From contig JAPOQZ010000074.1 of the NCBI GenBank assembly GCA_026710435.1, positions 1 through 64,000 on the forward strand: a stretch of 64,000 nt of DNA, in the 5' to 3' direction. The position numbers and the translations under genes were made by a program. A model generated the notes under the pieces. The model did no database searches and was not told the origin of the DNA. It saw nothing but the letters and a program-made list of their open reading frames with translations. Below are positions 9,147 through 24,903 of the stretch, in pieces (position 1 is the first letter of the stretch; each line of letters opens with the position of its first letter). This stretch comes from a bacterium. GTDB lineage: Bacteria > Actinomycetota > Acidimicrobiia > Spongiisociales > Spongiisociaceae.

Positions 9147-9251
9147 CTAGGAGGGGCCTGAAGAACGGGGGTAGAGGTTGACCCGCGTTCGCTGACCTGG
9201 GAGTCTCTTACCGACCGTCGGGCCAACATGGGGTTTCTCAGCACCTTCCTA
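9147..9251. repeat. Dispersed intergenic repeat type B, copy 1 (CTAG-bounded)
   Basis: GTTCGCTGACCTGGGAGT...GGGGTTTCTCAGCACCTTCCTAA, similar to 21624-21728. Starts inside the perfect palindrome CCCCTCCTAGGAGGGG (9141-9156). Confidence 0.65.
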
Positions 9252-9333
9252 AACTCCCCGGTGTCTTCACCCCACTGTGAAGGTGGTGTTGAATCCATCC
9301 GGACGCGAAAGGTCCAAGAGCTTGGGTAGGGAC

Positions 9334-21520: not shown

Positions 21521-21627
21521 CTAGAAGGGTGCTGAACAATGACGATTGCTCGGGCCTGCCGCCCGCCAGCCCAGGCATTTTGCGGGCGGTTGGCAGGCCG
21601 CTGGTGGATTGCTCAGCACCCTCCTAG
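21521..21627. repeat. 107-bp palindromic repeat type A, copy 1
   Basis: CTAGAAGGGTGCTGAACAATGACGATTGCTCGGGCCTGCC...GGCAGGCCGCTGGTGGATTGCTCAGCACCCTCCTAG; near-complementary ends. Confidence 0.92.
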
Positions 21628-21728
21628 AACAAGGGGTGAATGGCTTATGAGGGTTGTCGCAGCGTTCGCTGAGCCGGGAGTTTGTCGTCGACCTTCGGGC
21701 TAGCGGGGGTTTCTTAGCACCCTCCTAG
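21624..21728. repeat. Dispersed repeat type B, copy 2, abutting type A copy 1
   Basis: GTTCGCTGAGCCGGGAGT...GGGGGTTTCTTAGCACCCTCCTAG, similar to 9147-9251. Confidence 0.65.
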
Positions 21729-22408
21729 CGGCGGACGATTGTCCGGTAAGCAGTAGCCATGATGACGGCGGCTACAGCGAGCGCAGGCGTACCCAGTACC
21801 CAGAAGGCGATCGCGCCCCAGGGACTCGAACTCCACAGGTACAGCAACGCCAACCCGGGACCGAAGAACACAGAACAGCCCAGCACAAGTCTCAGGAGCC
21901 TCATCCGGTTACCCCGGCTCAGTTCCGAACTGAGGGCGAGTGCTTGAAAGCCGCCGGCCCGCCTCTCGACGATCAGGAACGGGTAGAAGCTATAGATCAT
22001 CAGCACCATGATCCCGGGCACGACGAGGAACACGGTTCCGACCGAGACGGTGAGGAAGAAGGCCGCCGAAGCTCTCACGAACCCGTCCCGTACCCACCAG
22101 TCGTCCCTGGGGGGCCGGCCGGAACGGTCGGATGAGACGGCTGCCAGAGCGGTCCGGGAGAGAGGCCATGCGGCGTATCCGCCCAGGGAGAGGCCGAGTA
22201 GCCAGATCAGCAAGTTCAACCAGTAGCTGTCGGTTGCCTGATTGACGAGTAGCACCAGGGCGGGCACCGCCATCAGATACGAGGAGCGGGCCAGCAGCCG
22301 CTTGTCGTGCCTCCGGAAGCCCGAGATGCCCGCCGACAGGACCTTGCTGACGGATAGTGGCGATGCTTGTCTGGACGGCACGTTTCGACCTCTTGGGCGA
22401 GCGTCCAA
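21725..22408 (-). CDS. Hypothetical multi-pass membrane protein
   Basis: Several hydrophobic segments (YLMAVPALVLLV, FFLTVSVGTVFLVVPGIMVLMIYSFYPFLIVERRAG, AIAFWVLGTPALAVAAVIMATAY). Confidence 0.65.
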   Translation of the reverse strand: MDARPRGRNVPSRQASPLSVSKVLSAGISGFRRHDKRLLARSSYLMAVPALVLLVNQATDSYWLNLLIWLLGLSLGGYAAWPLSRTALAAVSSDRSGRPPRDDWWVRDGFVRASAAFFLTVSVGTVFLVVPGIMVLMIYSFYPFLIVERRAGGFQALALSSELSRGNRMRLLRLVLGCSVFFGPGLALLYLWSSSPWGAIAFWVLGTPALAVAAVIMATAYRTIVRR

Positions 22409-22532
22409 GGCTACACCGTCGGATCACTCCGAACGAGGTGCCCACATGGCCGGCGCGCGGCCTCCGCCGTTCGCGCGACTGCGGGTGGGGTCTTGCGGCT
22501 CGCCGGTGCCCGTTGGTGCATCGTTCGATCCC

Positions 22533-22639
22533 CTGGGAGGGGTGCTGAACAATGACGATTGCTCGGGCCTGCCGCCCGCCGACCCAGGAGTCATGCCGGC
22601 GATGGCAGGCCGCTGGTGGATTGCTCACCACCCTCCTAG
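22533..22639. repeat. 107-bp palindromic repeat type A, copy 2
   Basis: CTGGGAGGGGTGCTGAACAATGACGATTGCTCGGGCCTGCCGCCCGCCGACCCAGG...GGCAGGCCGCTGGTGGATTGCTCACCACCCTCCTAG. Confidence 0.92.
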
Positions 22640-22648
22640 GCTGCTCGC

Positions 22649-23464
22649 ATGACGAGTGGCGCTCCCCGGCCTATCACCTTCCTTTCCGACTTCGGGTGGG
22701 ACGACGAGTTTGTCGGGGTGGTCCACGGAGTGATCGCCACCCTCGCTCCCATGTGCCGCGTCATAGACCTCAACCACCGGGTACCGAGGGGCGATGTGAG
22801 ATCGGGGGCGCTCACGTTGCTGCGGGGAATCCAGTACATGCCACCCGGCGTGCTTCTTGCCGTGGTGGATCCCGGCGTCGGTACCAGCCGCCGGGCGGTC
22901 GTGGTGGAGACTCCCTGGGGATACATGGTCGGGCCCGACAACGGGCTCCTATCGCCGGCGGTGGCTCTCGTCGGCGGCGCCACACGGGCATTCTCGGTAG
23001 AGAACCCCGATGTCATGCTTCCTGCTCGAGGCCGGACTTTCGAGGGGAGGGATCGTTTTGCTCCCGCGGCAGCTGTCCTCGCGGCGGGCGAGGCAGACCC
23101 TCACGAATTGGGTCCCCAGGTCGATCCGCATGCTCTCGAACCGCTCCTGCTTCCTCTCTCCGATGTGTCGGACGGCCACGTGGAGGGTCAGGCCTGGTGG
23201 GTGGACACTTTCGGAAACGTGCAGACCAACATCTCACCCGAGGATCTGGAGGAGGCGGGGATGTCGCAGGGGCAGGACGTCGCGGTGCGCGTTGGGCTCA
23301 TGAAGTACCGGGTTCCGTGGGTGGGAAGCTACGCAGAAGTAGCAGAGGGACGCCCGCTCATGCACATCGACTCGGTCGGGCTGATGGCCCTGGCGGTCCG
23401 GGGAGGCCGGGCCGACGAGCACTTCACGTTGGGAGCCGGAACGTCTGTCGTGATCACGTCCTAG
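22649..23464 (+). CDS. SAM hydrolase / S-adenosyl-L-methionine hydroxide adenosyltransferase (DUF62) family
   Basis: ITFLSDFGWDDEFVGVVHGVI...LAVVDPGVGTSRRAVVVETPWGYMVGPDNGLLSP...VDTFGNVQTNI. Confidence 0.9.
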   Translation: MTSGAPRPITFLSDFGWDDEFVGVVHGVIATLAPMCRVIDLNHRVPRGDVRSGALTLLRGIQYMPPGVLLAVVDPGVGTSRRAVVVETPWGYMVGPDNGLLSPAVALVGGATRAFSVENPDVMLPARGRTFEGRDRFAPAAAVLAAGEADPHELGPQVDPHALEPLLLPLSDVSDGHVEGQAWWVDTFGNVQTNISPEDLEEAGMSQGQDVAVRVGLMKYRVPWVGSYAEVAEGRPLMHIDSVGLMALAVRGGRADEHFTLGAGTSVVITS

Positions 23465-23567
23465 GAGGGTGCTGAACATTGACGATTGCTCGGGCCTGCC
23501 GCCCGCCGACCCAGGCATTTTGCGGGCGGTTGGCAGGCCGCTGGTGGATTGCTCAGTACCCTCCTAG
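23461..23567. repeat. 107-bp palindromic repeat type A, copy 3
   Basis: CTAGGAGGGTGCTGAACATTGACGATTGCTCGGGCCTGCC...GGATTGCTCAGTACCCTCCTAG; supplies the TAG stop of the upstream CDS. Confidence 0.92.
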
Positions 23568-23595: not shown

Positions 23596-23889
23596 CGGTG
23601 AGCCGAGGGTCAGAGACTGAACAGTTGGATCACGAATACGATCCCAGCCAGCCCGATGATGCCGAGAAGGATGAGGAGGGTGAAAGCTGTTCCTGGTCTC
23701 AAGATTAAGCGAGGCTACCTTCGGCGACGGGCAACCACCACTCGAATGCTACTCTGCTAGGTCTCCGGAAACGAGAGGGGTCATAGGCCGGGGCCGCTGA
23801 TCAGGGGGGTGCTGTATCTCGCGGCGCGGTACGGCGAGACCCTGAACCATCTAGCCACTCGAAACTGTCCAGCACCCATTGTGGTGACT

Positions 23890-24903
23890 GAATCCCTGCG
23901 CGCATGTGCGAGAAGTTGGTAGGTCTGGGCGAGCTTGATCTGCTGGCGTTCGGTCGTCCGGTGCGTCTGCGGTGGCGCAGAATCGCCGCTGGTTGTGTCC
24001 GAACCCCGACTGTGCGGAGAAGTCGTTCGTCGAGTAAGACGCCACATCGGTCCGCCCCGGGCGTTGCTGACATCCCGAGCAGCAAGATGGGCGACCATCG
24101 GGGTCAGGCGGCGGGTCCGCTCCGTTGAAGAAGTCGCCGAAGATCTGGGCTGTGATAGGCATACGGTGAACCGCGAGGTCCGCCGACCGGGTAGGTAAGG
24201 TCGAGGCTGTGGGCGTGGACAAGAATCGCTATTCTGGCGGCGCGGCCAGTTCCGTACGAAGAAGTGGATCCGCCGGGCCGTCCTGGACATGTCGGGCCCA
24301 ATCGCACGGCCTACGACCGGGTCCTTCCCAACGCGCTGCAAGTCGCGGACCCATTCCATGTGAAGCCCCTCGCCAAATCAGCGACTCGACGAAGTACGCA
24401 GAGAGTCTAGAACGAAACCCTCGGGCATAGGGGCCGCAAACACCCGTTAGCAGCGTAGAGCCGGACCCCCGCTTCCTGACATCTGCTTCCGGACGCATCA
24501 GCGACCGGGGCCGAACCCCGCCTCCGGGCCTCCTCAATGCCGGTGACCCCACGGAGAAGTCTGCACAGCCTGGCACGCCACCGAAACCGTACGAGGCATC
24601 TACGAGATCGCCTGCCCCGCCGTCGCGCTCCGATACACCCACCCGGCTCGCCGACGACGTTGAGGACGAATCCTGCCCGCCTACGGTCAACAAGCTGGGT
24701 CGCACCTTCGCCCGCTGGTGTCCCCAGATCACCAATTGGCACATCTTGAACGTGACCAACAGATGCCACCGAAGATCTTAACAACCTGATCACAGGTTGT
24801 TAAGATCTTCGGTATCAAACGCATGAAACGGGCCGCCTTCGGGTTCCGCAACTTCGCGAACTACCGAATACGGGCTCTCTTGTATGCGGGGAAACCCAAC
24901 TAG
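23890..24903 (+). pseudogene. ISL3-family-like transposase, multiply disrupted
   Basis: Fragments in several frames, including an HTH-like HTVNREVRR segment, DVEDESCPPTVNKLGRTFARWCPQITNWH and IKRMKRAAFGFRNFANYRIRALLYAGKPN*. Confidence 0.65.
24768..24813. repeat. Perfect 21-bp-arm palindrome inside the transposase remnant
   Basis: ACCGAAGATCTTAACAACCTG-ATCA-CAGGTTGTTAAGATCTTCGGT. Confidence 0.97.

Follow-up and report, generated by a model that had tools for sequence, protein, structure and literature searches.

A very abundant family of CTAG-inserted MITEs in a Spongiisociaceae genome, with an IS1182-type transposase as its probable mobiliser

The window analysed here is a 64,000-nucleotide stretch of a bacterial genome of the family Spongiisociaceae (assembly GCA_026710435.1, contig JAPOQZ010000074.1, positions 1 to 64,000). 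Three 107-bp palindromic repeats pointed out in an earlier note, here designated type A, were confirmed at 21521-21627, 22533-22639 and 23461-23567. The gene at 22649-23464, which starts just after the second copy and ends within the third, presumably encodes a SAM hydroxide adenosyltransferase-like (DUF62) protein. The repeats and their parts are as follows.

9147 to 9252, plus strand: type B, a related superfamily element with similar termini and a different interior
21521 to 21627, plus strand: type A copy 1, consisting of CTAG, about 99 bp and CTAG
21624 to 21728, plus strand: probable decayed type B element, having a CTAG in common with copy 1
22533 to 22639, plus strand: type A copy 2, diverged, with its right end 9 bp upstream of the ATG (22649) of the next gene
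23461 to 23567, plus strand: type A copy 3, the left CTAG of which holds the TAG stop codon of the 22649-23464 gene
23461 to 23464, no strand: left CTAG of copy 3, putative target-site duplication, as judged from empty sites at other copies
23564 to 23567, no strand: right CTAG of copy 3, putative target-site duplication, as judged from the same empty sites
23465 to 23480, plus strand: left terminal inverted repeat of copy 3, GAGGGTGCTGAACATT
23548 to 23563, minus strand: right terminal inverted repeat of copy 3, GAGGGTACTGAGCAAT

Copies 1 and 3 were 95% identical in an ungapped alignment. Copy 2 was 107 bp long only by way of compensating indels, a surplus G close to its left end being offset by one T lacking internally, and its alignment gave an identity of 64% when ungapped and about 90% when gapped by eye. 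The 20-bp ends with one mismatch in 20 that had been quoted for the repeat are the consensus of the family; in the window, the ends read CTAGAAGGG in copy 1, CTGGGAGGGG in copy 2, and AACATT and AGTACC in copy 3. The inner inverted pair, GGCCTGCC / GGCAGGCC, was found in the copies. The terminal repeats of type A are imperfect (GAGGGTGCTGARCAAT) and 16-20 bp in length, and the mobile part is about 99 bp long, because empty sites, described below, show one CTAG becoming one per side. With a length of 107 bp, type A is short and non-coding, and a transposase gene would not fit in it.

Two other features were observed in the window. One repeat, also bounded by CTAG but distinct from type A, is about 207 bp long (CTAG-CCCCGATTTTTCATG...), extends from 13344 to about 13550 and has several copies elsewhere in the genome. 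The region 23800-24813 holds a remnant which we take, from a reading of its translation, to resemble an ISL3 transposase; a small inverted repeat with GGGTGCTG ends lies before it, and a perfect 21-bp inverted repeat (24768-24813) follows it.

The left end of type A was searched for, allowing up to 3 mismatches, in the source assembly, which consists of 4.9 Mb in 270 contigs. As a result, 311 matches were obtained genome-wide, compared with none for the reversed control, and the recurrence of type A, for which 311 represents a lower bound on copy number, is far beyond chance. At the same threshold, the left end had no match in the one same-genus genome, 2 matches in a different genus of that family, and none in the remaining relatives searched in the family and order. 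The exact left-end pattern was without a match in public genome and viral contigs, a collection that possibly did not cover the source genome, and no match to type A was obtained by blastn in plasmids and phages. The genome-wide statistics rest on these pattern counts and on an 843-kb sample picked deliberately around known copies, in which a type A profile detected 94 copies, divided 52 to 42 between the strands, with a median identity of 94% to the consensus and 90% pairwise, including one pair of identical sequence at different sites. By a crude gene model, all 94 sampled copies were intergenic, and they were present in tandem, convergent and divergent gaps in both orientations.

The conservation of type A runs exactly as far as the outermost base of each CTAG, and the flanks beyond are random. 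Empty sites were sought by joining the flanks of an element and then searching for paralogs. One copy, at L084:12226-12332, is inserted in an ISL3 transposase gene, for which seven paralogs read CGTCGT-CTAG-GACA with a single CTAG. The copy at L084:10911 had one clean empty counterpart, in L053, and the copy at L070:15937 lies inside another repeat, the other copies of which have one CTAG at that position, a compatible case with a messier junction. Thus, CTAG is present once before insertion and twice after it, and the empty sites are compatible with both a 4-bp duplication of CTAG and a duplication of TA within CTAG. The density of CTAG was 0.65/kb in predicted genes and 1.74/kb between genes, and this depletion helps explain the intergenic spread of type A. 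In 17 of the 94 sampled elements, the stop codon of a neighbouring gene was located in or beside their CTAG, and 13 of the 17, including copy 3, were exact CTAG cases. In the same-genus genome, the ortholog of the 22649-23464 gene also ends with CTAG, followed by no element, which is consistent with an empty site. A type A copy was also observed between convergent predicted genes at L056:7956-8062, where the duplicated CTAG provides the stop codon for both.

The earlier note had likened the repeat to a MITE/REPIN-like element or a long-hairpin RNA, and it is the first of these that is borne out in its MITE part, by the CTAG duplication seen at empty sites, by the large number of copies and their intergenic location and, at the sensitivity of the present search, by absence from the sister species. 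Type A is short and non-coding with terminal inverted repeats, a target-site duplication and a high, dispersed copy number, as is characteristic of a MITE, and it represents a very abundant, previously undescribed family of a familiar sort. The repeat had been said not to belong to any recognised named family, and this still holds, as no IS1182-type MITE with a CTAG target was found in the literature searched, the scope of which excluded ISfinder and most subscription papers.

With respect to the mobiliser, a dozen DDE_Tnp_1 matches were obtained in the genome, one of which, L110, was identified as an IS1182-family transposase (NF033551, above the cut-off). The L110 element is bounded by CTAG-GAGGGTGGTGT and CTAG-GAGACTGGTGT, and its left end recurred at two further contig edges, in one case directly next to a CAGCACCCTCCTAG end; these two further sites indicate that the resident IS1182 element is multi-copy. 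In an unbiased scan of 35 fetched relatives for any palindromic tetranucleotide accompanied by an inverted repeat, CTAG ranked best in most of them, with ends of G[AT]G[GA][CGT]TGGTG. Closer ends, of the TGCTGA kind, were found in a second IS1182-type element of L128, with CTAG-GAGACTGCTGAAGTA on both sides (its fragment matched NF033551 below the cut-off), and in an IS1182-type element of L185, from a same-order relative, one end of which is CTAG-GAGCCTGCTGATCG. At L128:201-3915, on a Dormiibacterota metagenome contig, two IS1182-type elements lie side by side with one shared CTAG.

The type A terminus, CTAG-GAGGGTGCTGA, has all the near-invariant bases of 19 CTAG-targeting IS1182 elements, and each base departing from their majority was seen in at least one of them. 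Of 11 terminal bases, type A shared 9 with one end of the resident IS1182 element and 7 with its opposite end, and it shared 9 with the ends in L128 and likewise with that in L185; a 9/11 match has a chance of about 1e-4 per comparison, to be read in view of the several IS families and ends inspected. Furthermore, the CTAG target agrees with that of the subgroup, as it should for an IS1182-derived MITE. The similarity of the ends is support, not proof, for an IS1182-type mobiliser. The CTAG-targeting subgroup (L110; L120-L154) is like type A in having CTAG at both ends and a terminal frame of G[AT]GnnTG[GC]TG, but its members are autonomous elements of about 1.8 kb with a DDE transposase, and no significant type A sequence was present past their termini. 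No significant overall similarity to the resident IS1182 element was found beyond the termini, indicating that type A did not arise from it by simple internal deletion. Because no transposase gene with the exact type A terminus was found in the assembly, we infer the mobiliser from these likenesses. Counting against an IS1182 mobiliser, genome G002 has two decayed type A copies, yet no IS1182 match. Within the broad IS1182 family to which the putative mobiliser would belong, IS1272 of Staphylococcus replaces a target stem-loop with no tetranucleotide duplication (PMC5678879), and a 4-bp duplication has been tabulated for one IS1182 element (PMC3281130).

Taken together, type A is a MITE, a non-autonomous DNA transposon of about 99 bp with a CTAG target, and its mobiliser in trans is most likely a transposase of the CTAG-targeting IS1182 subgroup. 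In this process, a DDE transposase would recognise the terminal repeats of type A in trans, and the element would be inserted at the palindromic CTAG, leaving one CTAG on each side. Insertions that break genes would presumably be lost and CTAG is rare in coding DNA, so that survivors would be intergenic, sometimes on the CTAG of a stop codon itself. Several hundred repeats of a single genome would thereby be accounted for by one mechanism, and type A may represent a MITE family tied to the CTAG-targeting IS1182 subgroup, for which the ends and target are defined from 19 elements.

It is unlikely, while deserving serious consideration, that the same MITE with its CTAG duplication is moved by a transposase other than IS1182, for instance one of the IS5 group or one from a lost or unassembled element. 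IS5 duplicates Py-T-A-Pu, most often CTAG (PMC5493358), and IS5-like genes occur in the genome of type A; other CTAG-bounded families in this genome bear different termini, and no exact partner of the type A ends was found. However, the IS5 end of E. coli K-12, GGAAGGTGCGAATAAG, is without the conserved GnGnnTGnTG frame and by eye shares 4 of 11 bases with type A when no gaps are allowed; type A does not have an IS5-like terminal repeat, and the IS5-like genes inspected in the genome had no type A-like ends at CTAG. Two further candidates were rejected: IS630, of which only a single fragment is present in the genome, and ISL3, suspected from GGGTGCTG ends, which has many matches but does not fit in its ends and in the absence of a longer duplication.

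An improbable alternative to a MITE is a functional RNA or regulatory hairpin (terminator, attenuator or mRNA stabiliser) under selection. When folded as RNA, the copies in the window gave long, very stable predicted hairpins (z of -2.8 to -6.6), and some type A copies are located at the 3' ends of genes. Nevertheless, the window had no Rfam match, and in 86 copies the changes at paired positions affected one side of the pair in nearly every case, both sides being altered in scattered cells only. RNAalifold analysis of 25 copies gave a weak consensus that did not resemble the hairpin of single copies, and its covariation term was close to zero. The interiors of 19 superfamily members folded no better than shuffles (mean z of 0.15), indicating that the fold is not conserved in relatives. 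The occurrence of copies in both orientations and in all three kinds of gap is also against the long-hairpin RNA. As a caution for annotation, such palindromes beside genes are insertions, not riboswitches. A REPIN/BIME-like element moved by a RAYT (Y1) transposase shares with type A its abundance, palindromic structure, intergenic location and flanking tetranucleotide, but is hardly tenable, as the required Y1 transposase is absent (no Y1_Tnp (PF01797) match in the genome by a search that detects Y1 in control genomes), the type A tetranucleotide is a target duplicated on both sides whereas in REPs a GTAG is found at one end (PMC3733652) with no such duplication, and type A units are not paired REP hairpins.

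Apart from the question of the mobiliser, type A was found to belong to a wider superfamily. Paired CTAG-GWGnnTGSTG ends, at a spacing giving 83-113 bp, were searched for in 395 genomes of the class, and eight were tallied as having the pattern, the listed matches including the source genome, four others of its family (G006, G008, G009 and G011) and three from elsewhere in the class (G224, G277 and G302). A rescan with free spacing (40-450 bp), confined to the stretches around matches of the first search, gave 12 elements, of which ten were 106-108 bp, one was 101 bp and one was 115 bp, with both CTAGs counted; in the source genome, 61 of 66 CTAG-end pairs were 106-108 bp. This sharp length mode near 107 bp is suggestive only, because the rescanned stretches had been chosen by the first, spacing-limited search. 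The interiors differ but can be aligned; a CTGACCTGG-like motif recurs at their centre, as does, within the family, GTTGGCCCG...CGGGCCAAC in the interior. Common descent could by itself account for the similar length. It is a doubtful conjecture that CTAG mini-elements across the class are locked at about 99 bp (107 bp with the CTAGs), with the interior turning over and the termini and CTGACCTGG-like motif being kept. If it were true, transposition would depend functionally on the fixed spacing, which gives a length rule for miniature transposons that can be tested, and two other families of 107 bp might reflect the same rule. RUP of Streptococcus pneumoniae, an IS630-Spn1 MITE, is 107 bp long with about 108 intergenic copies, terminal repeats like those of a resident IS, and has TA in its target (PMC2229807); it differs from type A in its IS630 type and TA target. 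The Correia/NEMIS elements of Neisseria are short palindromic MITEs with long stem-loops and one main form of about 107 bp (PMC2229807), differing in their TA termini, 24-bp terminal repeats and host. Both, the nearest to type A in style, are likened to it by description, not by sequence.

An element of about 341 bp, non-coding and with TGTCC...GGACA ends at CTAG, was also observed (L054:7693-8043, L158, L159, L168, L156 and L160). It often has a CTAG in common with type A, and some of its copies have GAGGGTGCTG at one end instead, as if termini had been swapped between families.
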